Both the position numbers and the translations under genes were made by a program. The notes beneath the pieces were generated by a model. That model was not told the DNA's origin, did not search any database, and saw only the letters and a list, made by a program, of their open reading frames with translations. A DNA stretch of 64,000 bases from Gammaproteobacteria bacterium (lineage in GTDB: Bacteria; Pseudomonadota; Gammaproteobacteria; S012-40), in assembly GCA_029881255.1 (NCBI GenBank), contig JAOUMY010000008.1:62001-126000 (forward strand), given 5' to 3'. This document shows, one piece after another, positions 38,807 to 54,682 of the stretch (position 1 is its first letter; each line of letters opens with the position of its first letter).

Positions 38807-39505
38807 TTAACTGTAGGCGAGAATCTTTTTCGGCCGCCCTCTTTTTCGGTTGGCAACCGGCAGGCCATATACCTTGGCGATACTCAGTATAAATTCGGAA
38901 TTACCGGTCGCAGATTCTCTCGCAATCGCTGCGCGGATCAAATTCCACTCTTCTTTGTCTATGGGCGACAATAAATAGTGGTGGTAATTTCTCTGCTTTT
39001 CGTCTGCGGTATCTCCAAACTCATCAAAGCACTCACAGATATCCAGCCAACGATAACGATTCAAAAAGCGCTCCTGGTAACTGGACCACTTGTAGAGCTC
39101 GAAACCATCACATCCCTCCATTCTGTCGGGATGAAGCTCAATATAACGGCAACAAGCAACGAGATAACGCTTGGTTTCGATAGGGCTGGACTTATATCGC
39201 CCTTCCCATATTGTCCCCGTCTTCCCGTATTTTCGATTGATAAATCGCGTCTGACGACCTGCTAACCGTTTCATCATCAACGCGATCGCGTCAGGTTGAG
39301 AACCTGGATCGAGAATAAGATGGACGTGATTGTCAAACAGACAGAAGGCAAATACCTTCACATTGTGTTCGTACTTCAGAGACCGAAGATTCTCGATATA
39401 GTAAAGATAATCTTCATCGTCAAAAAATACCGATTCTCTGTTATGTCCACGTTGGACGATATGATGCGGATGATCTTTCACGATGACTCTGGCTTGTCTC
39501 GGCAT
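38807..39505 (-). CDS. REP-associated tyrosine transposase (RAYT, IS200-like)
   Basis: RAYTs are domesticated Y1 transposases that act on REP palindromes. The 232-residue protein has the family N-terminus MPRQARVIVKDHPHHIVQRG, the HUH metal-binding pair in FDNHVHLIL near residue 70, and the catalytic-Tyr helix region RYLVACCRYIELHP near 125. The C-terminal KRGRPKK is the usual basic tail. I use the ATG at 39505; an upstream start at 39529 adds eight residues. It looks intact. It may mobilise the adjacent palindrome. Confidence 0.93.
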   Translation of the reverse strand: MPRQARVIVKDHPHHIVQRGHNRESVFFDDEDYLYYIENLRSLKYEHNVKVFAFCLFDNHVHLILDPGSQPDAIALMMKRLAGRQTRFINRKYGKTGTIWEGRYKSSPIETKRYLVACCRYIELHPDRMEGCDGFELYKWSSYQERFLNRYRWLDICECFDEFGDTADEKQRNYHHYLLSPIDKEEWNLIRAAIARESATGNSEFILSIAKVYGLPVANRKRGRPKKILAYS

Positions 39506-39961
39506 ACTACAACCTCCGCTACTGCTCAAGCCTATTATTTTTCACACTACGAAAAAGAATAAGTGCACAAGTATAAGAAAACCTGATAGGCAAATCACCC
39601 GTTTTTGTGAATATATTCTGAACAATTTTTCATTGTCCGTCCCTATTTTGAATGCCCCCACATTGGGATATCCACCTATCTCTTTTAGGTTATAGACAAG
39701 AATCATTATGCCTACCTTTAGAAAACAGTCGGTAATTTAAACTCTGTCCAAAAATAGCGCCCGTTTATTCTAAAATTTATCTATGTCAATGAAATAGCGT
39801 TGATTTTTTTTTGCTAATTTGAAGGAATAAAATAGCGCTAAATTACGTCGCAATGAATCTTCTACGAATATAGAAACATGCTTTTACGCGGGCAAAAGCG
39901 CGTGAATAATGCTTGCGATCCAAGCCCGCCGATAAATACTTATAGCGATAGTTTGTATGCT
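39506..39961. other. AT-rich gap without a recognised gene
   Basis: This gap lies between the transposase start and the end of the cytochrome operon. It is AT-rich with several short T runs. A weak hairpin, GCTTTT/AAAAGC at 39880-39899, lies about 60 bases after the last operon gene and may end its transcript, although no T-run follows. No coding frame is convincing on either strand. Confidence 0.5.
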
Positions 39962-41989
39962 TCAAAACGCATAGCGATAAACAAGATTAAATACTGCTTG
40001 TTCAAAATTATTTTCCGGACGTTGACGATTCCTCTGCCACTCGTAGCCAAGTTCCAATTGATTCCATACAGTCTTCTGCCATTGATAATTGAACTTTATC
40101 ACTGGTCTCAGGATGTACGATTCTTCGCCGCTATGGCTCACACGCACGCTGGCGATAACATTTTGGTCGATCACGAAACTCGTAACTGGCTTCATACTGT
40201 AGCGAAAATTAAAACGATAGTTTGTGGAATTCCGTGAAATAGTATACCTAACGCCCAGATCAACTCCATCATTCCAAGGTTTGTATATTTGTCGCTTCGA
40301 TACAGACGCATACACGTCGGTATTAGCATCGCTATCCTTAACTTCTTTTTCGCCATCCCGATAACGATAGGAATAGATGGATCGAAAGACATCGAGTTTA
40401 ATACTAAGTTGACGGGGAAAAGCGTACTCCGCGCCGGCATTGTAATATTCGCTAATACTACTATAGAGTTCCGCTCTTCTTTTTATCTCATCAATCTCTA
40501 TGATTTCCTGCAATGTCGAAAACTCATCAACGCGAAATTCTCCTATCATCGCATTCTCTATCTCAAGCATCGGGCTACGACGCATTTCAGCCGTAAAATA
40601 TGTAGTTAGCTTATCGAAGAAACGATAGTTCCCCTGTATAGATATAAGATTGAGTTTTTCGAAATACACATCGTAGTCTAAGGCTTGACGTACAAATCCG
40701 TTTTGGTCACTAAACGCTATTTCCTCTCCCAATGCCGCTCTCCCGGTCACATTGTTATACCGTTGGTAAGCGCCATAAGGCTGTACCTGCCATCCATTAC
40801 GTCGATATATCAGGCTGGCAGTGTTTACATACTTCTCGTATTGTATTCTGTCCTTACTATCAAAGCGCACAGGAAATCCGCCAGCAACAGCCATCGCAAG
40901 ACGGGAACCCAGCGCATATTCCAGGTACGCGCCGTCGTACTTACCAAACATGCCGCCATAAAGTCCTCTGTGTCTTCCCCCTCCCGCTTTCAGACCGGTA
41001 CCACTATTACGATATTCGAAAAAAACATCATTAAACTCTACGCCTTCACCGGCGCGATTAACCAGGTCATAGCGTTGATCCACTGCCATATCGAAACGCC
41101 ACATTTTTCGCTTGTCTGTCATGCGAGAACCGAGATTGATGCCGGATAAAACCATTGCCTGCTCCAGTCCGTTGGCATCGAGTCCACGTCGATCGGTTAC
41201 CAGCATCATTTGATTTAACGCCCCATACACTTTTTTCTGTCCGGGCTTGTTCTGCTGGATCGGGTTCAAAGCTACGATAGGCGCTTTTACTTCTAATTGA
41301 TTATTCAACAGTCCTGAAAGCCTCTGTCGAACGCGAACTATATTTTCGTCTTTTGGATATTCATCTAAAAATCGACGATACAAGGACGCTGCCTGAGCCT
41401 GCTGGCCGTTACGCTCTCGTGCAACGCCCAGTTTTTCCAACGCAATGGCGCTGTTGGGAGATATCTCCGCTAAAACGCCTTCTAATAATTGAATAGCGTC
41501 GTCGTAGCGTTGTTTTTGCAATGCCCTGTCAGCAATTAACAACTTCATTTGATGTTTGTAATACTTATCCTTCGCGCTCATTGACGGTGAAGAGAACACC
41601 AACGTCACCACATTTCGCGTTAGCCCGTGGTGAACGCGCGTACGCAGCGGATTGACGAATTGCATATCAAGCGAAATCTTTCCCTTTTTTGTTTTTACGT
41701 CAAACGATTTAACAAGATTTTGTTTTTTCAATTCCTCTAGTACCAATTTCAGATTGGCATTGTCGCACTTTCGCCTTAGTTTGAAAGAAAGTGCGAGTCT
41801 TTCCTGAACACGATCTTCTATTTGATCATGAGCAATACTGATCTTACTCGCAAGTTCCAACTCCAACATACGAAGCGCGTCATTTCCGTATGTGTCGACT
41901 TGTTGAAAACACATATGGGAAGTGGCGTAGGTTCTGGGCGTAACACCAAAAACCAAGACTAGTGAAAATAGGAGGACAAATTTTTTCAT
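39962..41989 (-). CDS. TPR plus outer-membrane beta-barrel protein of the multihaem operon
   Basis: The 675-residue protein has a signal peptide (VLLFSLVLVFGVTPRTYA), an N-terminal domain with TPR-like repeats at about 150-240 (YDDAIQLLEGVLAEISP, then NGQQAQAASLYRRFLDEYP), and from about 250 on alternating amphipathic strands typical of an outer-membrane barrel. It ends VFNLVYRYAF, with the C-terminal Phe used by the BAM machinery. There is no haem motif. The ATG overlaps the stop of the 64-haem gene by one base, so the two are coupled. By analogy with MtrB-type porin-cytochrome conduits it could house or export the cytochrome, but the barrel part (about 430 residues) is shorter than MtrB and sequence similarity to it was not seen. 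Confidence 0.75.
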   Translation of the reverse strand: MKKFVLLFSLVLVFGVTPRTYATSHMCFQQVDTYGNDALRMLELELASKISIAHDQIEDRVQERLALSFKLRRKCDNANLKLVLEELKKQNLVKSFDVKTKKGKISLDMQFVNPLRTRVHHGLTRNVVTLVFSSPSMSAKDKYYKHQMKLLIADRALQKQRYDDAIQLLEGVLAEISPNSAIALEKLGVARERNGQQAQAASLYRRFLDEYPKDENIVRVRQRLSGLLNNQLEVKAPIVALNPIQQNKPGQKKVYGALNQMMLVTDRRGLDANGLEQAMVLSGINLGSRMTDKRKMWRFDMAVDQRYDLVNRAGEGVEFNDVFFEYRNSGTGLKAGGGRHRGLYGGMFGKYDGAYLEYALGSRLAMAVAGGFPVRFDSKDRIQYEKYVNTASLIYRRNGWQVQPYGAYQRYNNVTGRAALGEEIAFSDQNGFVRQALDYDVYFEKLNLISIQGNYRFFDKLTTYFTAEMRRSPMLEIENAMIGEFRVDEFSTLQEIIEIDEIKRRAELYSSISEYYNAGAEYAFPRQLSIKLDVFRSIYSYRYRDGEKEVKDSDANTDVYASVSKRQIYKPWNDGVDLGVRYTISRNSTNYRFNFRYSMKPVTSFVIDQNVIASVRVSHSGEESYILRPVIKFNYQWQKTVWNQLELGYEWQRNRQRPENNFEQAVFNLVYRYAF

Positions 41990-44900
41990 TACCAGTCCCT
42001 CGATGAAGACGAGTGTTTGCCGCTGCGTCTGGTTAGAATACGTGTGAACGTATTATCACTATAAAGATGACATGCACCGGAACAATCACGGAGCTCGCTT
42101 ACTGTGTAAAATATTGTTGTAGGTACTTGCGTCTTTTTGTGTTGCGTGACTTCATAATCACCTGCATGACAGCCAGCGCAGTCCGGCGCATAGGCTGGAG
42201 ATCGCCATGGAATGACTTCGCTATTACTGGTATGACACGCCACGCATAGACGCCCTGCATGCCCGCCAGGATAGTTTGTCGATTCATGGGTAAAGAGTTT
42301 TGTCGGTGTCCAGCCGGTAGTGCTATGACAACGATCGCAGGCCGCCGTGGTGACAAAGTGAGAAGTCGAGTACTTCACCGCATAGGTGCCATTATGGCAA
42401 GTTGCGCACGCGAGGCTGGTCTGTGAGTGATTAAACGTACTAGGCCTCCAGGCACTGCTTCGGTGACAAGCGCTACAATCCAATGTGGTAGGAATATGCG
42501 TGTTCGTTTTGCCGGTGGCAGTAGTTCCGTTATGACACGTCTGACAATCGCTGGTTATACCCACATGACTGAAGTTCACATTGGACCAGTTCACAGTATC
42601 GTGACAATCCCCACAGCTATCACTGCTTGCGATATGCGTCGGTCCCTTACCCTGAACGCTGACGTTATTATGACAAGTTACACAACTCACAGTCGCATCG
42701 GCATGATTAAAGGTCGCGTTTGTCCATAGAGGATAGGAGTGGCAGTGAGCACAGTCGTTGTTACTCGCAATATGCGTCGGTGTCTTACCAGTCGCATAAG
42801 TATTGTTGTGACAGGTAAAACAACTTGTCGTAATTGTGCTGTGATTGACAGTTGCCCCCAACCAACTTGAGGTCGAAGTATGACAGCTAGCACAGTTGTC
42901 ATCGCTAGGTATATGAGTAACAGGTTTTCCAGAACGAATGACATTATTGTGACAATTTGAGCAACCAACTGTTGCATCAGCATGACTAAAAACCGCGTTC
43001 GTCCAAACTGGATACGTATGACAGTGCGCACAATCGTTGTTGCTCACAATGTGATTGCTATTTTTACCCGTCGCGTAGGTCCCGTTGTGACAGGTGAAGC
43101 AAGTAGCTGTCAACACATCATGATTAACTGTTGCCCCGATCCAGGTGCTCGTTGAACGATGACAGGCTGAGCAATCGTCTCCGCTTGGAATATGTGACGG
43201 ACTCTTTCCCGGCTTTATGACATTGTTGTGACACTGTACGCAAGCAACAGTCGCCTCAGCATGGTCAAATCGCGCGCCAGTCCATAGCGGATAGGTGTGA
43301 CAGTGAGCACAGTCATTATTGCTGATAATGTGTGTCGCTGACTTTCCAGTGGCGTATGTGCTGTTGTGGCAGGTAAAACAGGTAACACTTAGCGTATCGT
43401 GATTCACGCGTGCCCCGAGCCAACTCGTCGTCACGGTATGACACGATACGCAATCATCACCACTTGGAATGTGAGTGGGCGTCTTACCCGAACGAATCAC
43501 ATTGTTGTGACACTGCACACAGGCAACAGTTGCCTCTGCATGATCAAATCGCGCGCCTGTCCACACCGGATAGCTATGGCAGTGGGCGCAATCGTTATTA
43601 CTGACTATGTGTATCGCGGGCTTGCCACTGGCAAAGCTGCCGTTATGACAGGTGTAGCAATTACTGGTCAAACTATCATGATTTACCCTCGCGCCAAGCC
43701 AGCTAGCTGTCGAAGTATGGCATGAGGCACAATCATCGCTACTTGGAATATGCGAAGCGCTCTTACCCGATCGAATCACATTGTTGTGGCACTGAATACA
43801 ACTCACAGTAGCGTCTGCATGATCGAAACGTGCATTTGTCCATAACGGATAGCCATGGCAATGCGCGCAATCGTTATTGCTGATGATGTGATTGGCGGAC
43901 TTGCCTGTTGCGCCTGTACCGTTGTGGCAATTGAAACATCCACTACTGATGGCATCATGGTTGACTGTAGCACCGATCCAGCTGGTTGTTGTATGGCAAC
44001 TGCTGCAATCGTCACTACTCAGTATATGATCGGTCCCCTTGCCCTGTCGTATTACATTATTGTGACATTGAGAACAGGCGACGGTTGCTTCACTGTGATC
44101 AAAACGTGCGCCAGTCCAGTTGGGATAGCTATGGCAATGGGCACAATCATTGTTAGTAATGATGTGTGTATTGGATTTTCCTGTCGCATAGGTATTGTTA
44201 TGACAGCTAAAACAGGCCATCGAGATGGTAGCATGATTCACCTGAGCACCGATCCAGCTAGACGTTGAACTGTGACAACTGCCACAGTCGTCACCACTCG
44301 GGATATGTGTAGCCGTCTTACCAGACATAATCGTATTGTTATGGCACTGCACACAGGCGACCGTCGCATCCACATGGTCAAATCTTGCATTCGTCCAATT
44401 CGGATAGCTATGACAATGTGCACAATCATTATTACTGACGATATGATTGTTCGGTTTGCCAGTGGCCTGCCCACCGTTGTGACAACGGAAACAATTCGTG
44501 CCAACCGTACTGTGATCGACGGCTGTTGCATTCCAGTTCGCCGTTGTATGACAAGTCGCGCAACTGTCACTACTCACAATATGATTGGCGGGTTTGCCTT
44601 GCACAATCGTATTGTTATGACATACCGAGCACTCGGCACTGGTTTCAGCATGATCGAATACCGCATTTGACCAGGCAGGATAACGATGACAGTGCGCACA
44701 ATCATTATTGCTAATTATATGGTTCGCTGTCTTTCCACCGGCTATAGCGCCGTTATGGCAGGTAAAACAGTTGTCGACAATAAGGCTATGATCGACCTGA
44801 ACCGGCGTCCAACTCGTCGTGTTATGACAGTTCTCACAACTACTACTGCTGGCGACATGATTTGTCGGCTTACCTTCCCGAATTGTGTTGTCGTGACACT

Positions 44901-46644
44901 GGGCGCACGGCGTCGTGACATTACTATGACTAAAACGCGCGTTTGTCCATTGTGGGTAACTATGGCACTGGGCGCAGTCGTTATTGCTTACGATATGATT
45001 ATTGGTCTTGCCCGTAGCGTCACGTCCGTTATGGCAGGTATAACAATTATTGCCGACGCTAGCATGGTCAACCTGTGCCTGACTCCAGGACTGGCTCGTA
45101 TGACAGCTTTCGCAGGTGTTACCGCTGGCGATGTGATCAGAAGGTTTGCCTTCGACAATGGTGTTGTTATGACATTGAAAACAACCTGTACTTACGCCAC
45201 TATGATCGAATCTCGCACCTTTCCATCGCGGATATTGATGACAAAGAGCACAATCATTACTACTGATTATGTGCGATTCATTCTTACCTGAGGAAATTGA
45301 TCCGTTGTGGCAACTGTAACAGGCATCGCCAACGACATCGTGGTTAACGCGAGCACCAGTCCATACCGTGGTGTTATGGCATGATTCACAATCGTTTCCG
45401 CTGGGAATATGATTATTCGGTTTACCTCCAACGATTGCATTGTTGTGACATTGGACGCAATTGCTTGTTGTTTCATTATGCGAGAATTTTGCACCACGCC
45501 AGCTTGGATAGCTATGGCAACTGGCACAATCGTTATTGCTTACAATATGCGTATTATGCTTACCGGTAGCATCTTTGCCATTGTGACAGGTAAAACAGCC
45601 ACTACTGATATTACTGTGATCAACCTTTCCACCTTTCCATGAGATAACGCTGTGGCAGTCGCTACATTGATTGCCTGATTGAATGTGACCGGCCTGCTTT
45701 CCTGTGGCATAGCCTCCGTTGTGGCAGGAATAACATTGATCTCCGACGAAACTATGATCTACACGCGCGGGTTTCCACTTACCTGTCTGGTGACATTGTT
45801 CACATTGATTGGAGGCAGGCAAATGATTCTTGTCTTTACCCTTGGCAAAGCTGCTATTGTGACAGGTAATACACGCCTGTCCCTGGTTGTCATGATTCAT
45901 CTGCGCGTCCGTCCATCCACGCGTAGAATGACAGTCAACGCAAGCGTTCGTGGAAGGAATATGCTCTTTTGGTTTACCACTGACAATTTGATTGTTGTGG
46001 CAAGATAGGCAGTCATCGCCGGACTGCTGGTGCTCATATTGAACCGGCGACCAGCGTGTCTGATTGTGGCAGTCACCGCACTGGTTATTGCTCGGAATAT
46101 GTAGATTCGGTTTGCCGTTAGCGTTCACGTTATTGTGGCAGATAAAACACTCGAAATCTTCCTGGTGGGAAAAGCGCGCCGGCTTCCAGGACAAGGTACC
46201 GTGACAGGTATTACAATCGCTACGCACTTGAATGTGGTCGTGCGGCATTTCTCCGGCAATGCCCATTTTGTGACAAGACTGACAGCTACCACGCATGGAA
46301 TCGTGGTCAACCGTCCGCGTTTTCCATGAAAATACGGTATGACAGTTATCGCAGGTATGGTCACTGGGAATGTGTTGTGTATGCTTCCCACTGGCACGAT
46401 TGCCGTTATGACATGACTGACATCTTACCGGCGTACCACGAAACACGCCTCGCTGGTGACATTCTTCACAAGCCGTTGCCGCGTGGCGGCCGTTTAACGG
46501 AAATCCGGTTTCAAAGTGATCAAAATTGGCGTTAAACGCCAGGCTTTCACTGGAAAAAAAGAACGAGGAAAACGATATCAGTGTCAGCATCATCAGTTGC
46601 ACAACAATAGAATGCGTGCTGCGGTGTATCCTTGCTATTTGCAT
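41989..46644 (-). CDS. Giant exported multihaem cytochrome c (64 haem motifs)
   Basis: The 1551-residue protein starts with a long signal peptide (VVQLMMLTLISFSSFFF, cleaved near SLA-F). I count 63 CxxCH motifs plus one CxxxCH (CSGACH) near the C-terminus. From about residue 330 to 1380 the chain is built from a 93-residue module holding four motifs, for example CAHCH, CVQCH, CxSCH, CFTCH, with a conserved His outside each motif (FDH, HIPS, VNH, HIIS) that could be the second axial ligand. The first 330 residues follow the same spacing with more divergence. There is no transmembrane helix after the signal. It is followed by the barrel gene with a one-base overlap and preceded 51 bases away by the 21-haem gene. 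A periplasm-spanning or extracellular electron wire is inferred. Confidence 0.92.
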   Translation of the reverse strand: MQIARIHRSTHSIVVQLMMLTLISFSSFFFSSESLAFNANFDHFETGFPLNGRHAATACEECHQRGVFRGTPVRCQSCHNGNRASGKHTQHIPSDHTCDNCHTVFSWKTRTVDHDSMRGSCQSCHKMGIAGEMPHDHIQVRSDCNTCHGTLSWKPARFSHQEDFECFICHNNVNANGKPNLHIPSNNQCGDCHNQTRWSPVQYEHQQSGDDCLSCHNNQIVSGKPKEHIPSTNACVDCHSTRGWTDAQMNHDNQGQACITCHNSSFAKGKDKNHLPASNQCEQCHQTGKWKPARVDHSFVGDQCYSCHNGGYATGKQAGHIQSGNQCSDCHSVISWKGGKVDHSNISSGCFTCHNGKDATGKHNTHIVSNNDCASCHSYPSWRGAKFSHNETTSNCVQCHNNAIVGGKPNNHIPSGNDCESCHNTTVWTGARVNHDVVGDACYSCHNGSISSGKNESHIISSNDCALCHQYPRWKGARFDHSGVSTGCFQCHNNTIVEGKPSDHIASGNTCESCHTSQSWSQAQVDHASVGNNCYTCHNGRDATGKTNNHIVSNNDCAQCHSYPQWTNARFSHSNVTTPCAQCHDNTIREGKPTNHVASSSSCENCHNTTSWTPVQVDHSLIVDNCFTCHNGAIAGGKTANHIISNNDCAHCHRYPAWSNAVFDHAETSAECSVCHNNTIVQGKPANHIVSSDSCATCHTTANWNATAVDHSTVGTNCFRCHNGGQATGKPNNHIVSNNDCAHCHSYPNWTNARFDHVDATVACVQCHNNTIMSGKTATHIPSGDDCGSCHSSTSSWIGAQVNHATISMACFSCHNNTYATGKSNTHIITNNDCAHCHSYPNWTGARFDHSEATVACSQCHNNVIRQGKGTDHILSSDDCSSCHTTTSWIGATVNHDAISSGCFNCHNGTGATGKSANHIISNNDCAHCHGYPLWTNARFDHADATVSCIQCHNNVIRSGKSASHIPSSDDCASCHTSTASWLGARVNHDSLTSNCYTCHNGSFASGKPAIHIVSNNDCAHCHSYPVWTGARFDHAEATVACVQCHNNVIRSGKTPTHIPSGDDCVSCHTVTTSWLGARVNHDTLSVTCFTCHNSTYATGKSATHIISNNDCAHCHTYPLWTGARFDHAEATVACVQCHNNVIKPGKSPSHIPSGDDCSACHRSTSTWIGATVNHDVLTATCFTCHNGTYATGKNSNHIVSNNDCAHCHTYPVWTNAVFSHADATVGCSNCHNNVIRSGKPVTHIPSDDNCASCHTSTSSWLGATVNHSTITTSCFTCHNNTYATGKTPTHIASNNDCAHCHSYPLWTNATFNHADATVSCVTCHNNVSVQGKGPTHIASSDSCGDCHDTVNWSNVNFSHVGITSDCQTCHNGTTATGKTNTHIPTTLDCSACHRSSAWRPSTFNHSQTSLACATCHNGTYAVKYSTSHFVTTAACDRCHSTTGWTPTKLFTHESTNYPGGHAGRLCVACHTSNSEVIPWRSPAYAPDCAGCHAGDYEVTQHKKTQVPTTIFYTVSELRDCSGACHLYSDNTFTRILTRRSGKHSSSSRDW
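42390..45650 (-). repeat. Tandem 279-bp repeats encoding four-haem modules
   Basis: The coding DNA repeats with a period of about 279 bases (276 where one residue is missing), each unit encoding four CxxCH motifs. Central units are the most alike: SNNDCAHCH recurs with the same following YPxWTxARFDH in most copies, and the antisense word ACAATCGTTATTGCT or close variants appears repeatedly. The outer units are more varied. The limits given are approximate. Confidence 0.8.
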
Positions 46645-46695: not shown

Positions 46696-48261
46696 CTAGT
46701 CAAATTGCACTTCTTTGAAGGTTTTTTCGTTATGGCAATTTCCACAGTTGCTTCCAAACTGTCCGTCATGCATATCATTCTGAAGATGACAGCTAACACA
46801 CTCGTCATCAATCTCGCGACTACCTTTTAGATGACAGGCATAACAGGTCTGCTTCTTGTGTTTTCCCTTTAATTCAAAATCGGTCTGGCGATTGTGATCA
46901 AACTTCCACGCCTTCCAGTCGGCTACCAGATGACAATCGGCACATTTGTCCCCAAACAGTTTTTCGTGAACCTCTGGATCCTTGTGACAGCCTTTGCACT
47001 TGTGTTCGGTATCGACATACTTCTGATCTTTGTGGCACTGTTCACACATAACAGTTTGATGCACACCGACGAGTGGGAAGTCGGTCAGACCATGATCAAA
47101 TTTCACTGTATCTATCCATTGCGTGGACGAATGACATTGTTGGCAACGCTTACCTAGCTCTTTATCATGCACATCGATCGCGCGGTGGCATGAGTAACAA
47201 TCCGCCGGGAGTGAATACAGCTTCCCCGTCTTTACATGGCAGTAGCTACAGTCAATATCCTTATGCTTACCAGTCAGTTCGAAACCAGTAGTTTCATGCT
47301 CAAACTTCTGTTTATCCCAGGCACGAGGACTATGGCAGGTCTCACACTTTTTTCCGAATCTGCGCAGATGTTTATCCCTAACATCGTGACAACTGACACA
47401 GGTCTTTTTGAGACTGACTTCGTAAGCATCCTCAACATGACAGTTCTCACAGGCAACGCTTTTGTGTTTGCCATTTAGATCGAACTTGGTGTCCTTATCA
47501 TGATCGAATCGAATCTTTCCCCACGCATCCTCTTTGTGACACTTATCGCACTTTGTCCCCATGCGCCCACGATGCACGTCTGTTTTTTCATGGCAACTAT
47601 GGCAACTGACTTTCTCGAAGGTATATCGATTGGCAGGGTGACAAGACGCGCAGGCGACTAAACGATGCGAGTCTTTTAACGTAAACTTCGTTTTGTCATG
47701 TTGAAAATCAGCAATCCGCCATTGATTATCGACATGGCAATCCTGACACCGATTTCCGAAATATCCGTCATGCGCGTCCTGTTCCTTATGGCACTCGGCA
47801 CAACTATACTTTGCCTCATGATATTTCTTACCCTTCTTATGGCAGGCATCACACTCGACAAATGCGTGAGTGCGATTCAGAGGGAAGTCGGTATCGTCGT
47901 GATTGAATAGACGTTCGTCCAGTAAAATCAAAGCCTGATTATCCTCACCCAAATGTTCACGATGACATTCCCTGCAATCTCGTTTGCGTATCGTTTCATT
48001 TTTTCCGTGGTAACCGCGCTTTTCCAACAAATCGTTGCGTATATTGCGATGATCGTGACAATCAACGCACAGACGATTTTGCGCTCCTTTATCAAACATC
48101 ACGTGGCAGTTATTACAATCCTCAGCAAATTTGGTATGCACTTTCGCCAGCTTTCCCGGCATAAGTGAACGCTCCAACATATTGGCGATATCAGCATCCG
48201 CAATCGTTGCCCAACACAAGGTCACAAACACCCAAACAACATAGAAACCAGGACGCCGCAT
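46696..48261 (-). CDS. 21-haem periplasmic cytochrome c
   Basis: The 521-residue protein has a signal peptide (VVWVFVTLCWATIADA) and 21 CxxCH motifs counted by eye. They lie in a repeating c3/c7-like pattern of about 70 residues: CxxCH, a KHK or HR His, CxxCH, DxH, FGxxCxxCH, W, FDH. Basic and acidic residues alternate, in contrast to the Ser/Thr/Asn-rich 64-haem partner. The start abuts the end of the membrane cytochrome gene. It probably takes electrons from that protein in the periplasm and passes them to the 64-haem cytochrome. Confidence 0.92.
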   Translation of the reverse strand: MRRPGFYVVWVFVTLCWATIADADIANMLERSLMPGKLAKVHTKFAEDCNNCHVMFDKGAQNRLCVDCHDHRNIRNDLLEKRGYHGKNETIRKRDCRECHREHLGEDNQALILLDERLFNHDDTDFPLNRTHAFVECDACHKKGKKYHEAKYSCAECHKEQDAHDGYFGNRCQDCHVDNQWRIADFQHDKTKFTLKDSHRLVACASCHPANRYTFEKVSCHSCHEKTDVHRGRMGTKCDKCHKEDAWGKIRFDHDKDTKFDLNGKHKSVACENCHVEDAYEVSLKKTCVSCHDVRDKHLRRFGKKCETCHSPRAWDKQKFEHETTGFELTGKHKDIDCSYCHVKTGKLYSLPADCYSCHRAIDVHDKELGKRCQQCHSSTQWIDTVKFDHGLTDFPLVGVHQTVMCEQCHKDQKYVDTEHKCKGCHKDPEVHEKLFGDKCADCHLVADWKAWKFDHNRQTDFELKGKHKKQTCYACHLKGSREIDDECVSCHLQNDMHDGQFGSNCGNCHNEKTFKEVQFD

Positions 48262-49152
48262 TTAGTACACATGAACCGCAAATACATGTATTGAACCGCT
48301 AGCAAAAAGCAGAACCAAAAGCGGCATGTGCGCATAACGCCAGATGCGGAAAAAGGACTCATAAATGCGCAGATATATCAGGCGATGCAAGGTATCCAGA
48401 TAGTGATTCATTAACGACCTTGCCACATCATCCAAATCCCTGGACAGCTCACGCAGCATTTTTCGGCGAGTCAACGGAAACGACAAATAGGTCAACATGG
48501 CAGATGACAAAGTAAACCGTCTTTGCAAAAATTTTTCGCGCATTTCCTGCGTACGCTGACTTATTGCGCTGCTACTCTCGAAGGAACTCAGTTCCTCTTC
48601 TATGCCCATCGCTATTAAATGACGATTGCCTATTCCATAATGAATTCTTGTGTATAGAAAACGACCGATTACACCGCTGACGAAGACCAGTAAGGCTGAC
48701 ACCAGGGCAACACCGCCATTGATTGAACCGATGTGGAAAGTACTGTGAATGACAATCAGATAAACCCCGACAACGCCAAACACAATGTGAAGAGAAAGTG
48801 ATCTGAGCAACAGTCCTTTTTGGCGTAGACCGGAGGAATGTTTCACAAAGGCATAGGCATAGGCGAAGAGCATGAGTATGCCGCCAGTCAATCCCAGGCC
48901 GTAGCCAAAACCTTCCTCAGGGACATAATATCGCTCGTCCCAGTACACCCGGCCAACGCCAAAGAGCACGATCATACTGCCCAGTAAGCACAAGGAAATC
49001 ATTACTGATCGCGTTGTTTTGACGCCGCGTTTGCCTGTGTTTTTTGAGCCGGCGTGACTCAATTGCACGACAGGCATATTTCCATTGTTTCCCATATTTC
49101 CTTTCTTCCCTGCAGACTGTTTGTCTGCCCTTACTTTGGCAGAAATTTTCAC
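48262..49152 (-). CDS. Five-helix membrane protein, putative b-type cytochrome
   Basis: First gene of the multihaem operon. The 296 residues have a basic N-terminal 45, helices near 50-70, 83-103, 118-140, 145-166 and 270-293, and a charged cytoplasmic segment at 170-265. Helix three contains H-x13-H (from SLHIVFG to VIHST) and helix five contains another H-x13-H (YAHMPLL to SIHVFA). Two helices each carrying two His with this spacing is the dihaem arrangement of ferric-reductase/NOX-like and related b cytochromes. No FAD domain is attached, but a flavoprotein is encoded divergently. I recognise no named family; the haem b assignment is inference from His spacing and context. Confidence 0.6.
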   Translation of the reverse strand: MKISAKVRADKQSAGKKGNMGNNGNMPVVQLSHAGSKNTGKRGVKTTRSVMISLCLLGSMIVLFGVGRVYWDERYYVPEEGFGYGLGLTGGILMLFAYAYAFVKHSSGLRQKGLLLRSLSLHIVFGVVGVYLIVIHSTFHIGSINGGVALVSALLVFVSGVIGRFLYTRIHYGIGNRHLIAMGIEEELSSFESSSAISQRTQEMREKFLQRRFTLSSAMLTYLSFPLTRRKMLRELSRDLDDVARSLMNHYLDTLHRLIYLRIYESFFRIWRYAHMPLLVLLFASGSIHVFAVHVY

Positions 49153-49349: not shown

Positions 49350-50666
49350 ATGAGTGAAAGCTGGGAAACGCCAGCGCTGGTCAGTTTGTATCTGCTGCCT
49401 TTTCTCGGACTGGTGTTATGGCAAACCTCACGGAGACGCCAGATCAACCGCAGCAACAAGGCTCAAATTGATGAGAACAAAGCGAGCGGCCTCACCCAAC
49501 CCGCCTCGCTGCATCCGGTTATCGACAAGAATCTTTGTATCGGATGTAACTCCTGTGTCGCAGCCTGCCCCGAAGGCAATGTGTTAGGCATCGTCGACGA
49601 CAAAGCTGAGCTGGTAAACCCGACCTCATGTATCGGTCACGGAGCGTGCGCCCGTGCCTGTCCCATGGGCGGCATACGCCTGGTGTTTGGTAGTGCGGAG
49701 CGCGGCGTTGACATACCTCTACTTAGCGAAAATTTTGAGTCCAATGTTCCTGGGATTTTTCTCGTCGGTGAAGTGGGTGGAATGGGATTGATCCGGAATG
49801 CCATGGAACAAGGCAAGCGAGCCATAGACTACATACGCAATATCATCAACAAAAGTGACCGCAAATCACTCGACGTTCTGATAGTAGGCGCTGGTCCTGC
49901 CGGTATCTCCGCAAGCATTGCTGCCAAATACTATGGATTGCGGTATCGCACCATCGAGCAACAAAGTTTTGGTGGGACCGTTGCGCACTATCCGCGTGGA
50001 AAACTCGTTATGACGCAACCGGTGGACTTACCCGGCATCGGCAAGATTCGTATTGGAGAAATCAAAAAGGAAGATCTGTTATCCATTTGGGAAGATTTGA
50101 AATCGCGTGCAAATATTGAAATTCATTATCAGGAATCGTTTGTGTCGCTTGAAAAAGACGGCGCAAATTACCGTATAACAACCACTGCAGGCGAATTTGT
50201 TTGCAAAACGCTAGTGTTTGCAATTGGTAGGCGTGGTACGCCGCGCAAACTTGAAGTCCCCGGCGAATCTGATTCGAAAGTTGTCTATTCACTGGTTGAT
50301 CCAGCACAGTATCGCGGACAAAAGGTATTAGTCGTAGGTGGTGGTGACAGTGCGCTTGAGGCGGCGATTGCCCTGGCCGAAGAAGCCAACACCACGGTGA
50401 CCTTGTCCTACCGGGGCGATGCCTTCAATCGCGCAAAGTTAAAGAATCGCGATCGTCTAAAAAAACATGTGGACAAGGGACGAATTCGACTACTTCTCAG
50501 TTCAGTTGTGGAATCTATCCATAGTGACAAGGTGACAATCAAATTAAAAGAAGAACTGTTGACGCTTGAAAACGACGCCATACTCGTTAGCGTGGGCGGT
50601 ATACTGCCTACCAAAATGCTTACCGATTTGGGAATCGAAATAGAAACGAAATTTGGTACGGCATAA
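49350..50666 (+). CDS. Membrane-anchored iron-sulfur flavoprotein oxidoreductase
   Basis: The 438-residue protein has an N-terminal helix (LVSLYLLPFLGLVLW), then a ferredoxin-like domain with CIGCNSCVAACP at residues 63-74 and CIGHGACARACP at 94-105. In the second motif the second Cys is His97. A thioredoxin-reductase-like domain follows, with the FAD motif VGAGPAGIS near 174, the NAD(P) motif VVGGGDSALEA near 330, and a C-terminal GGILPT loop. It has no CxxC redox-active disulfide. It is divergent from the multihaem operon, so it may feed electrons from NAD(P)H into the membrane b cytochrome or take them back. SD GAAGGGG supports the start. Confidence 0.88.
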   Translation: MSESWETPALVSLYLLPFLGLVLWQTSRRRQINRSNKAQIDENKASGLTQPASLHPVIDKNLCIGCNSCVAACPEGNVLGIVDDKAELVNPTSCIGHGACARACPMGGIRLVFGSAERGVDIPLLSENFESNVPGIFLVGEVGGMGLIRNAMEQGKRAIDYIRNIINKSDRKSLDVLIVGAGPAGISASIAAKYYGLRYRTIEQQSFGGTVAHYPRGKLVMTQPVDLPGIGKIRIGEIKKEDLLSIWEDLKSRANIEIHYQESFVSLEKDGANYRITTTAGEFVCKTLVFAIGRRGTPRKLEVPGESDSKVVYSLVDPAQYRGQKVLVVGGGDSALEAAIALAEEANTTVTLSYRGDAFNRAKLKNRDRLKKHVDKGRIRLLLSSVVESIHSDKVTIKLKEELLTLENDAILVSVGGILPTKMLTDLGIEIETKFGTA

Positions 50667-50674
50667 ATACTCGC

Positions 50675-51373
50675 TCATCCCTGAAACGCGTTTGCAAACA
50701 CCTGTTGCTGAAACCACAGGATGGACGGATACGCAGAAATCCAGATCCAGAAGAAGCGATTCAAGCCAAACAAACAGGCATTCGTAAAATGAAAAATGGC
50801 AGTTATACACAAGGCAATCGTCAGCGCCGTCTGGGCGAACAGGGCCAATGGGAATAATAATTCAAATCCCATCACGCTCCATGACATTACAAAAAGCAAC
50901 CGCGGGTGATTGGCCCAGCCACGAAGCGACTCGCTCACCGGATATACAGAGAAGCGAAAAACGTCTTGTAAGGCAAGCCCATTACGCCATTCTGGATTAA
51001 CGACTTTTACCCAGCCCGAAATAAAATAGGATAAAGTCAGTTGCAGGGCGAGATAACCGATCGCTAATTCACGCCAATCATCATTTGGTGCGATATGCAC
51101 CAAAAACAGACACCAAAGCATCAATAGCCCCATGCGATCGGCACCGCCGTTATACGGCCCCTGAAACCGATGCAGTAGCGCCAGGGCCAATACAAACAAT
51201 AAACTCAGCACCCCACTGGGATATATATCAGCGATGAGCAACAGCGCCAACAAAAGACGGGGAAAATGGAGTATTTTCTCGCTGCGAAACGATCTCAGGT
51301 GCTCAATACTTTGCAGTGCGAATGCAAACCCCAACAATATTTCTGAGAGGCGCATCGCATCGACAAGATTCAT
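50675..51373 (-). CDS. HTTM-domain membrane protein
   Basis: The 232-residue protein has about six membrane helices and the HTTM pattern LTLSYFISGWVKVVNPEWRNGLAL (ends given) near residue 130, as in the membrane part of vitamin-K-dependent gamma-carboxylase relatives and DoxX-like proteins. There is no lumenal carboxylase domain. It overlaps the upstream gene by four bases. Function is unknown. Confidence 0.7.
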   Translation of the reverse strand: MNLVDAMRLSEILLGFAFALQSIEHLRSFRSEKILHFPRLLLALLLIADIYPSGVLSLLFVLALALLHRFQGPYNGGADRMGLLMLWCLFLVHIAPNDDWRELAIGYLALQLTLSYFISGWVKVVNPEWRNGLALQDVFRFSVYPVSESLRGWANHPRLLFVMSWSVMGFELLFPLALFAQTALTIALCITAIFHFTNACLFGLNRFFWIWISAYPSILWFQQQVFANAFQG

Positions 51374-51828
51374 GGTTCTTCCTGAGCCGGGAGCGATCTG
51401 ATGTCGGAATAGAATACCACTTCTTCAGTCAGTTGCTGCCCTTCACGTGACACCAGTAGTAAACGAAACTGTATTGCCGAATATTGCTTACGGGATATGC
51501 TGCTGTCAGCATTGAGATCTGCCAGGATACGCATAAAGATCTCGTTCTCACTATGAGGAGTTGGATTAATGAGAAGTCGCTCGGAACAACTCACCACAAA
51601 TAGTGATGCATTCCAATAGGGATTCCATATCATACGCCTGAGCATGGAAGCGAAACTAATATGGGCAGGCTTGGGCCGATACTCTTGCCAGTGAGACGCC
51701 GAGGAAGTTCGTGATTCTAACAAAGCAAACTGAACGCGTGGGGATGGGGCAATAAAATCAAAAAACCGCCACGAGGGAATAACAGCCGGTAACAGTAGTT
51801 TAAATGTCCGCCAAATCACACCCATCAC
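51370..51828 (-). CDS. Partner of the HTTM protein, unknown function
   Basis: This 152-residue protein has a hydrophobic N-terminus (VIWRTFKLLLPAVIPSWRFFDF) and a soluble remainder. The sequence IPSWRFFDFIAPSPRVQFAL recalls small proteins often encoded next to HTTM genes. The gene is coupled to its neighbours: 3 bases after the ankyrin gene and a four-base overlap with the HTTM gene. No catalytic motif is seen. Confidence 0.6.
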   Translation of the reverse strand: MMGVIWRTFKLLLPAVIPSWRFFDFIAPSPRVQFALLESRTSSASHWQEYRPKPAHISFASMLRRMIWNPYWNASLFVVSCSERLLINPTPHSENEIFMRILADLNADSSISRKQYSAIQFRLLLVSREGQQLTEEVVFYSDIRSLPAQEEP

Positions 51829-51831
51829 TTG

Positions 51832-54546
51832 TCAATCCGTATCGATAAATTGCGTCATCCCCTTCTCACGCGCGACATCACGTTGAGTTTTGCCAAAAAG
51901 GTTTTTCATCTTCGTACCCGCACCTGCCTTTACCAGTTGCTGCGCTGCGAGCCCCTGATCCGCATCCAGGGCGATATGTAAAGCGGTATCTCTGGCGCTG
52001 TTTTCCAAATCGAGCAATTCTGCCTCTGACAAAAGTCGCCTGATCAAGACCACGTTTCCAGACTTTGCAGCAAAGTGTAGTACACTGTCGCCCTGCCTGG
52101 TACGTAGCTCAGTTTTTGCGCCCTTGTTGAGTAATAGCGTGGCCACGTCATAACGCTGTTGCCTGACACTTTCCATTAAAGGGGTGACCCCTGCACGATC
52201 TGCTATGTCGATATCTGCACCGTGCCTGACGGCATATTCCAACATGAGACGATTTCCATCCCGAGCTGCCTGCCATACCACGCCTCTACCATGCTTGTCC
52301 TGCCAACTCCAGGGATTGATTTGTTTTCCCAACTGAGCGGCAAGCCCAGTTTGCTTGTTCACTACCGCATAGGAGAAAACTTCATAGTATGCATCCAGCG
52401 TCTCACCAAGCGCTCCCGCCTCAATGAGTGTAGAAAGCAGTTCCGCATAGCCGTATTCGAGCGCTAACATTAAGGCCGTTCGTTTATTGTGATCGATAAG
52501 CCCGGCATTGGCACCGCGTTTTAACAATAACAGTGCTATATCCCTATTTCCGATGCGTACTGCATGCATGAGTAAGGTCTGCTTACGAGTATCACGGCTA
52601 TCCACATGCATGCCCTTGTCCAAAAGCAACTGCACAATTTCTAATTTCCCTGCCTGTATGGCGACAATAGCGCAACGTACGCTGGCCTCATCAACAGGTA
52701 GTAGTTTTTTCTTTTCAAGTGCCAGGCGTAAAGTCGACACGTCACCCTGCCAGGCGGCATTCATCCACTCGTCCCAGCCGCTACTCTTGCGATGACGACT
52801 TTTAGCTAACCAGGAATAATCAAGCTCTGCCCGTATCTCCTCTTTGTCTTTGCCCAGTAGCAAACCTTTTTGCGCCAGATACGCACCCAACTGTGGGTTG
52901 GCTTCACTCAATCGATACATATCCATGCCGTGATTGTCCACGGCGTAGAGGTTTGCGCCGTGCTTAATCAAAAGATTAATCGCTTCGATAAACCCGTTTT
53001 TCATCGCTATAAGAAGCGCGGTTTCTCCTACTCTATTCCTGGTTTCAAGCATCGCTCTCTGGCCGATCAAATACTCAACTAAAGAGTATTGTTGATGACG
53101 TATCGCGACCATTAGTGGCGTGTCACCATTGCTATCCTTGGTATCAATTGCATAGCCCTGGGCCAATAGGCGCTCGACCAGAAGTTGACTGCCTGACTTG
53201 GCAGCCGCCAGCAGTATTCTCTCTCCGAAACTGGTATCCTCGTGCAAGGCTTTAGCGCCTCGCCACAATTTTTCCGCCTGATCTAAACGATTCGCTTGTA
53301 ATAATCCGACAATAATCTGCTCCAACATCCCGATACCTGGAGTCGCAATCTCAACAAAACGTGCCTGCGATTCTCCTTTATCCTCTGGGAAATAGTTGCG
53401 TACATATCGCAATACATCCTCTAAAATCGACTCCGATAAACGATGTTTTTGCAGTAGCAATAAAACAATTTCACTCTTCTTCTCTCTGATTAATGCATTT
53501 AAAATATAAGAAAGTTGTTCTGTTTCCAGTTGTAGTCCGGCATCGAGCAACAGCGACACGGTATCCTTGTGCATTTCCCGCAAGCCATAATAGAGCGCAT
53601 TGTAGCCAAATTTGTCAGCCAAATAATTTGAATGCCCTGCCTGTAACAGTTGCTTAGCAGCATCGGTGTTACCCGTTAAAGCAGCGATGTGCAGTGCGGT
53701 ACGATTATTGGCGTCGAGAAGATCAGCGGGAAAATTCGTTTGCTGTAACTCACGTACGTATACACCTGATTTTCTTGCTGCTGCCAGATGCATAAAGGAT
53801 TGCTCGTAGCTACTTCGAAATGTTTTGTCTATCTTCTGATCTTTTAGTACAACGGATACCGATATCTCGTCGCCAAAACGTAAGGCATCGGCCAGGACTT
53901 CTTCCCGTATATCTCGGGCATCAGGATCATGTTGCCACGATGACACGAATTGCAAATACTGCTTTGAGCGCAGCAGACTGGTATAAAACGCATGAGGATG
54001 TGCTGATTGCGTTTGTTTATTTTTCACTCCACGCAAACGGGCAATCAGAGCATCGCTATCGACGCCTTTTGTTGCAGACGTGGAACAGCTTGCCAGCGCT
54101 TTTTTCATGGCCTCATCGTCTGGATTGAACTCCAGCACTAAACGCTCCATCGTCTTGTGCGTGTCCTGATAGCCATTGCCCCAGGCACACAGCGCCCATT
54201 TTCGAGCGCCCACCATGTCTTTTTGGGTCCCCTGTCCGTTTCTCAACATACTCGATAAGGCAAATTGCGCCGGCGCATACCCCTGTTTTGCGGCATAGGT
54301 ATATAACAGATAGGCCTTTGCATCGTCACGAGCCAGTCCGCGCCCTTTACGAAACATCTCTCCAAGCGAATGCATTGACGCGACATCTTTATTCTTCTCG
54401 CCCGATCGCCATAGTTCGATCGCCCTGGCATAGTCCCCGTTTTTGTATGCCTGCTCGCCTTCCTGGTGAAAATCACGCGCGGACACACTGTCGAAGAACA
54501 TCAACAAAACCATGCATTGAAGGGCTGATTTGAACCAATATTTCAT
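51832..54546 (-). CDS. Exported Sel1/ankyrin-repeat protein
   Basis: The product of about 904 residues starts with a signal peptide (FKSALQCMVLLMFFDSVSA) at the ATG 54546; an upstream ATG at 54615 would add 23 residues. Residues 30-110 form TPR/Sel1 repeats (GDYARAIELW, then ASMHSLGEMFRKGRG, then GYAPAQFALSSMLRNG). From about 215 to the end there are many ankyrin repeats (RTALHIAALTGNTDAAKQLL, DTPLMVAIRHQQYSLVEYL, KTELRTRQGDSVLHFAAKSG). It is probably a periplasmic binding scaffold. It is the first gene of the operon with the HTTM pair. Confidence 0.85.
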   Translation of the reverse strand: MKYWFKSALQCMVLLMFFDSVSARDFHQEGEQAYKNGDYARAIELWRSGEKNKDVASMHSLGEMFRKGRGLARDDAKAYLLYTYAAKQGYAPAQFALSSMLRNGQGTQKDMVGARKWALCAWGNGYQDTHKTMERLVLEFNPDDEAMKKALASCSTSATKGVDSDALIARLRGVKNKQTQSAHPHAFYTSLLRSKQYLQFVSSWQHDPDARDIREEVLADALRFGDEISVSVVLKDQKIDKTFRSSYEQSFMHLAAARKSGVYVRELQQTNFPADLLDANNRTALHIAALTGNTDAAKQLLQAGHSNYLADKFGYNALYYGLREMHKDTVSLLLDAGLQLETEQLSYILNALIREKKSEIVLLLLQKHRLSESILEDVLRYVRNYFPEDKGESQARFVEIATPGIGMLEQIIVGLLQANRLDQAEKLWRGAKALHEDTSFGERILLAAAKSGSQLLVERLLAQGYAIDTKDSNGDTPLMVAIRHQQYSLVEYLIGQRAMLETRNRVGETALLIAMKNGFIEAINLLIKHGANLYAVDNHGMDMYRLSEANPQLGAYLAQKGLLLGKDKEEIRAELDYSWLAKSRHRKSSGWDEWMNAAWQGDVSTLRLALEKKKLLPVDEASVRCAIVAIQAGKLEIVQLLLDKGMHVDSRDTRKQTLLMHAVRIGNRDIALLLLKRGANAGLIDHNKRTALMLALEYGYAELLSTLIEAGALGETLDAYYEVFSYAVVNKQTGLAAQLGKQINPWSWQDKHGRGVVWQAARDGNRLMLEYAVRHGADIDIADRAGVTPLMESVRQQRYDVATLLLNKGAKTELRTRQGDSVLHFAAKSGNVVLIRRLLSEAELLDLENSARDTALHIALDADQGLAAQQLVKAGAGTKMKNLFGKTQRDVAREKGMTQFIDTD

Positions 54547-54682
54547 AGATTTCCTTCGATTCTCTCGCCAGGCTTTATGGTTAACCATCAATTTTACCAG
54601 TTGATACTTTTTCACTCAGGTCTTTAAATATAAATCGATTGCCGGAAGCAATTTTCTCACCATTCAAGCCAAGGAGTATGGT

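Follow-up and report, generated by a model that had tools for sequence, protein, structure and literature searches.

A 64-haem cytochrome in a gammaproteobacterial PCC3 locus: a probable outer electron wire and a linked flavin/iron-sulfur protein

The closest described system to the locus reported here is PCC3, a porin-cytochrome complex described by He et al. in 2017 (PMC5566968). In that description, the extracellular cytochromes carry up to 85 haems (median 34), contain 22-39 amino acids per haem and are built from internal repeats, while the periplasmic cytochrome has a median of 21 haems (PMC5566968). The inner-membrane protein is ~300 amino acids long, with five transmembrane (TM) helices, an SGXXG motif and two WX3HX13H motifs, whose HX13H pairs follow the ferric reductase domain pattern (PMC5566968). 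In AlphaFold2 (AF2) models, smaller PCC3 cytochromes take a long, mostly linear shape (PMC10734462), and the PCC3 extracellular cytochrome went undetected in the proteome of Sideroxydans ES-1 (PMC12016527). In the PCC3 papers surveyed, work after 2017 contributes expression measurements and AF2 models of short forms, and none describes a PCC3 tested by genetics or biochemistry.

We analyzed a 64,000-nucleotide stretch of gammaproteobacterial DNA (the window; contig JAOUMY010000008.1, positions 62,001 to 126,000), in which a preliminary description had drawn attention to a single polypeptide with 64 haem motifs. The features of this locus are listed below.

39962..41989, minus strand: PCC3 porin, 675 aa (TPR matches; homologues adjoin multihaem genes)
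41989..46644, minus strand: 64-haem cytochrome, 1551 aa, assigned as the PCC3 extracellular multihaem cytochrome (motif count and linkage to PCC3 genes)
42067..42084, minus strand: terminal CxxxCH haem motif of the 64-haem protein, CSGACH, residues 1521-1526 (motif count)
42325..46422, minus strand: array of 23-residue one-haem units in 2-haem (46 aa) and 4-haem (92-93 aa) super-repeats (lag identities)
46408..46524, minus strand: N-terminal di-haem cap, residues 41-79, FDHxxTGFPLxGxH..CxxCH-11-CxxCH (spacing and motif conservation)
46537..46644, minus strand: predicted Sec-type signal peptide of the 64-haem protein, residues 1-36 (from the sequence)
46696..48261, minus strand: putative periplasmic 21-haem cytochrome, 521 aa, 21 CxxCH (motif count)
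48262..49152, minus strand: PCC3 inner-membrane protein, 296 aa, five TM helices, two HX13H, SGXXG (motif conservation and AF2 model)
49350..50666, plus strand, divergent from the operon: FER, with an N-terminal TM anchor, a 2x[Fe-S] ferredoxin domain and an FNR/YpdA-like FAD/NAD(P) domain (domains, linkage and co-occurrence)
51832..54615, minus strand: ANK, a secreted Sel1/ankyrin-repeat protein (Pfam and PCC3 linkage)

On the minus strand, the genes run from the inner-membrane protein through the 21-haem and 64-haem cytochromes to the porin. The first two genes abut and the porin start overlaps the stop of the 64-haem gene by 1 nt, an arrangement that is consistent with one operon. As the neighbors of the 64-haem gene encode a porin, a 21-haem cytochrome and a five-helix membrane protein, we identify the locus as PCC3. 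It fits the described features in having a haem-rich, repeated cytochrome with a predicted outer location, a second cytochrome, a porin and an inner-membrane protein. The 64-haem protein, although large, is an ordinary example of a kind already described and does not represent a new one. The preliminary description was right to call it a cytochrome but missed its membership of a porin-cytochrome cluster. Its statement that few proteins carry so many haems is true in general, although the kind had already been described with up to 85 haems, and its view that most very large ones come from other groups was half right, as the PCC3 family has many large gammaproteobacterial members.

The inner-membrane protein contains invariant H122, H136, H275 and H289 and the residues S159-G160-G163 (SGVIG). 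The second published motif is intact (W271-X3-H275-X13-H289), and the only departure from the PCC3 pattern is Ser118 in place of the first Trp. Both HX13H pairs and SGXXG were kept in 95 of 95 inner-membrane homologues. An AF2 model (pLDDT 81) contained five long hydrophobic helices; a Foldseek search with this model against the PDB gave no match below E 0.7. The NOX5 membrane domain (Z 7.7, 20% identity) and b561/b6f proteins (Z 7-9) appeared among unrelated helical bundles, and a Z of 7.7 is not significant, being below the level that separates helical bundles from one another. Searches against Pfam found no family for this protein and no ferric-reductase family among the matches. Its HX13H pairs resemble those of ferric reductase/NOX membrane domains, and the structural comparison is no more than suggestive.

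The porin has a signal peptide, a TPR region and a beta-barrel-like C-terminal domain that ends in Phe, as do 62 of the 76 long matches to the porin profile. By profile comparison it is homologous to the gene at the porin position of the Amphritea atlantica locus (L092). In NCBIfam scans, the MtrB/PioB model TIGR03509 matched neither the porin nor 23 homologues; a search of the bacterium's own genome, which had no positive control, also returned no TIGR03509 match. A REP-associated tyrosine transposase (IS200-like) lies further downstream, ~430 bp from the porin gene (38807-39529, minus strand).

The open reading frame of the 64-haem protein starts with ATG, contains 1551 codons and has one stop, at its end. 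Counting by script returned 63 CxxCH motifs and one CxxxCH, exactly the 64 first reported, at 24.2 aa per haem; all 128 Cys residues lie within these motifs, and the five remaining frames contain 0-1 haem motifs each. The motifs are spaced by 23 residues, or 24 in five places, a regularity that excludes a chance origin. Identity between one-haem units rose from 0.23 for adjacent units (lag 1) to 0.37 (lag 2), 0.57 (lag 4) and 0.58 (lag 8), indicating a two-haem unit nested within a four-haem unit of 92-93 residues. The claim of a free His to match each motif proved almost literally true: exactly one occurs in 56 of 62 intervals between motifs, and 60 of the free His residues lie 16 or 17 positions after the first Cys (+16/+17). 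The sequence therefore gives good support to a bis-His multihaem wire.

The two ends of the protein are conserved among relatives. The opening two haems, 16 residues apart in an FDHxxTGFPLxGxH context, occur in 74 of 76 complete outer cytochromes, and the last motif is CX3CH in 39 of 76 complete outer-cytochrome homologues. We infer that the N-terminal di-haem cap is a candidate docking end. As read from the sequence, the protein has no lipobox Cys, the earliest Cys being residue 59.

We also considered if the array could be the product of assembly or of a misread frame. DNA identity between 4-haem blocks reaches 73% at most, and synonymous sites are saturated in most comparisons between them (34 of 38 pairs), which argues against an assembly artefact in the array length. 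Between Amphritea atlantica and A. pacifica, dN was 0.008 and dS 0.205 over all 64 haems, indicating strong purifying selection along the whole array. The exact count, the divergent repeats and this selection together rule out chance or a frame artefact.

The nearest known counterpart is the PCC3 of A. atlantica DSM 18887 (L092), which we recovered with 21 + 64 haems (published as 63 + 21; PMC5566968) and which shares with the window its gene families and gene order. It differs in the arrays themselves, which match only near the ends, with unit identities of ~0.5 between the two proteins compared to 0.64 and 0.77 within them. The PCC3 of Sideroxydans lithotrophicus ES-1 has, by published description, the same four-gene set, whereas its clusters contain 17 + 21 and 24 + 28 haem sites and its outer cytochrome is much shorter (PMC8788666). 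The multihaem proteins of Methanoperedens are surface proteins with very high haem numbers (113 and 52; the S-layer protein with 113 haems has the highest count that we met in the literature), but they are archaeal S-layer fusions and have no porin (PMC7082337).

MtrAB, MtoAB and PioAB share the principle of a porin joined to a multihaem cytochrome, but have 10 haems in place of 64, and the window porin lacks a match to the MtrB/PioB model. Searching solved structures with the repeat profile gave as best sequence match 6r2q chain A (E 8e-9), which we take to be MtrA of the MtrCAB structure. The DmsE/MtrA decahaem family TIGR03508 scored 227, above its cut-off of 192, because the repeats add up over 12 stretches; we rejected this assignment, as the protein has 64 haems and not ten. 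In the profile comparison suggested earlier, with c3/c7 and OmcS-type families, the protein scored with c7/c3 and MtrA-like models. PDB sequence searches with the 64-haem protein returned neither OmcS nor OmcE (polymerising subunits of 4-6 haems) among their matches.

A scan of genome contigs with the 64-haem sequence itself gave no matches, probably because repeats make poor search patterns; when an alignment of 15 21-haem proteins served as query, 80 named loci were recovered. Across 95 related genomes, the porin and the 21-haem protein occurred in exactly the same 25. Taking the 80 loci together with the window, the haem number is exactly 21 in 78 of the 79 complete periplasmic homologues, and the 63 complete other multihaem proteins, a few of which may not be PCC3 outer cytochromes, have 8-64 haems (median 24). 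Outer-cytochrome length therefore varies widely across relatives while the periplasmic protein stays at 21. A longer relative has 70 haems (L028), and a Methylococcaceae MAG (L123, 10862-19642) contains a cytochrome with wider motif spacing and at least 80 haems in 2927 aa, stopped by the contig end, which may exceed the reported PCC3 maximum of 85. PCC3 was also found on MAG contigs labelled Janthinobacterium lividum (L095) and Candidatus Planktophila lacus (L125), labels that may be binning or naming errors.

The arrays of the window and A. atlantica showed no block-by-block match except near the ends, while the two Amphritea 64-haem proteins aligned on the diagonal. Units were more alike within proteins (0.64 and 0.77) than between the window and Amphritea proteins (0.49-0.53), pointing to independent expansion or to homogenisation of the arrays. 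The equal number of 64 is best read as convergence. Outer cytochromes would grow by tandem gain of the 4-haem, ~92-residue unit, and their length would be free to change between lineages, as is expected of a part that provides reach or charge storage rather than of a catalyst. The natural series from ~8 to 70 haems on a constant 21-haem base would be well suited to testing how length affects electron transfer.

Two further genes accompany PCC3. Of the 55 loci whose sequence reaches 6 kb or more upstream of the inner-membrane gene, 51 have FER beside PCC3 and 48 have an ANK homologue. FER (E <= 1e-40) occurred in 22 of 25 genomes with the 21-haem protein and in 0 of 70 without it (Fisher p = 1e-18, a value that overstates independence as the 95 genomes are related). 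The FER-PCC3 synteny spans several classes. In seven loci (L097, L100, L102, L106, L112, L114 and L122), FER, ANK and the inner-membrane, periplasmic and outer-cytochrome genes follow one another on one strand, with the porin after them where the contig reaches. Term searches of the main text of open-access PCC3 papers found four genes described and mention of neither FER nor ANK; the linkage of FER, and also of ANK, to PCC3 is new relative to these descriptions.

A PCC3-like operon is also present on plasmid pEMTOL02 of Emticicia oligotrophica (Bacteroidota; L132, 7959-19757), in the order CcsA, inner-membrane homologue, FER, 23-haem cytochrome, 40-haem cytochrome and barrel-like protein. Compared to the window, its inner-membrane homologue had a profile E of 7e-43 and its FER was 46% identical; the barrel-like protein showed no detectable relation to the window porin.

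The nearest solved relatives of FER are YpdA-type reductases, thioredoxin reductases and ferredoxin-NADP reductases. Its flavin domain has no Cys pair and so would not form a thioredoxin-reductase-type redox disulfide. A predicted N-terminal TM helix followed by positive charges is present in 53 of 70 homologues, the window protein falling just under the threshold, and this topology would place the redox domains in the cytoplasm. In the second cluster motif, the second Cys is replaced by His in 78 matches (CxxHxxCxxxCP). We rejected a circular permutation of the flavin domain, as shifting the segment ahead of this domain to its end added only 2 bits in Pfam and the match became no longer.

On the basis of sequence, gene order, conservation and co-occurrence, from which haem loading, location, contacts and direction are proposed, we conclude that the 64-haem protein probably serves a PCC3 porin-cytochrome conduit as its outer electron wire. 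The proposed electron path joins the inner-membrane protein, with two b haems predicted from its four invariant His, to the 21-haem cytochrome, the outer-membrane porin and the external 64-haem chain. Two observations in Sideroxydans ES-1 count against this reading: the decrease of both PCC3 clusters on Fe(II) (PMC8788666) and the missing extracellular cytochrome in the proteome (PMC12016527). A haem occupies about 8 Å of chain in MtrA and OmcS, so 21 haems would span ~16 nm, long enough to cross the periplasm, and 64 haems would extend ~50 nm outward from a chain docked through its N-terminal di-haem cap. The presumed location at the outer surface draws on the porin and on published predictions. 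Our AF2 model of residues 738-1201 (20 haems, 50-row alignment; pLDDT 51.6) was unusable and did not confirm a linear wire, so linearity is taken from the published models of shorter relatives (PMC10734462). If correct, a single-chain 64-haem wire would be a candidate natural conductor tens of nanometers long.

At the cytoplasmic end, FER may exchange electrons with the inner-membrane protein, a contact that would couple the NAD(P)H or ferredoxin pool, and not quinones alone, to the conduit. We tentatively propose that PCC3 is a system of five to six genes and not a four-gene, quinone-linked conduit. Its cytoplasmic end would be FER, acting with a NOX-like dihaem inner-membrane protein, and the 21-haem and 64-haem wires would link this pool directly to the outside; the core (inner-membrane protein, FER and two cytochromes) would be common across phyla, including the Bacteroidota plasmid. 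The linkage of FER offers a concrete biochemical entry point to the direction and electron source of PCC3.

The direction of flow could be either inward or outward, and we rate the two about equal. He et al. (2017) modelled an inward flow, in which the wire would draw electrons from Fe(II), minerals, electrodes or partner cells and the inner-membrane protein would pass them to quinone, and on to oxygen or into reverse transport. PCC3 is present in iron oxidisers (PMC5566968), its inner-membrane gene is up in iron-oxidising Sideroxydans CL21 (PMC12442390), and RuBisCO in the bacterium's own genome makes electron uptake for autotrophy plausible. However, both PCC3 clusters of ES-1 go down on Fe(II) (PMC8788666), the published model has no dedicated cytoplasmic NAD(P)H-type flavoprotein such as FER, and driving electrons inward to NAD(P)+ against the membrane potential would be energetically costly; we regard inward flow as a real possibility at somewhat under an even chance. 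The same holds for outward flow from NAD(P)H or ferredoxin through FER, the NOX/ferric-reductase-like inner-membrane protein and the 21-haem and 64-haem cytochromes to external acceptors. It would account for the tight association of FER with PCC3 and for the reductases among its closest solved relatives, would be energetically easier if FER uses NAD(P)H, and is in keeping with the ferric-reductase-type HX13H pairs (PMC5566968) and the NOX5 membrane domain among the structural matches, although that match is not significant for a helical bundle, FER may serve another step, the host carries RuBisCO and other PCC3 hosts oxidise iron.

That the haems of the outer cytochrome mainly buffer charge near the envelope, with no long-distance conduction, appears unlikely: their number is large and freely varying, and a capacitor role has been proposed (PMC10734462), but the adjacent porin and the one-dimensional repeat of constant spacing suit conduction, and the two roles are not exclusive. 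A secreted, polymerising filament of the OmcS/OmcE type would also be a large secreted multihaem protein, and the low-confidence model predicts little secondary structure; given that the PDB sequence searches returned no such match and that each molecule is already a 64-haem chain genetically tied to a porin, we consider such a filament very improbable next to an outer wire of PCC3.

ANK perhaps has an assembly role for PCC3. Between FER and ANK (50675-51828, minus strand), the window encodes an HTTM-domain protein and a 152-aa protein, which are absent from the widely shared neighbor families. Further clusters of neighbor open reading frames, besides ANK and a CcmI-like TPR protein, were rejected, as they looked like antisense frames of conserved genes. 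In two loci (L057 and L058), the inner-membrane protein, 21-haem protein and porin are present and the outer cytochrome is absent between them. The genome that contains the window has a second PCC3 locus (L021; G000:C10:50000-69000), in the order FER, inner-membrane protein, 21-haem protein, porin and 47-haem cytochrome.
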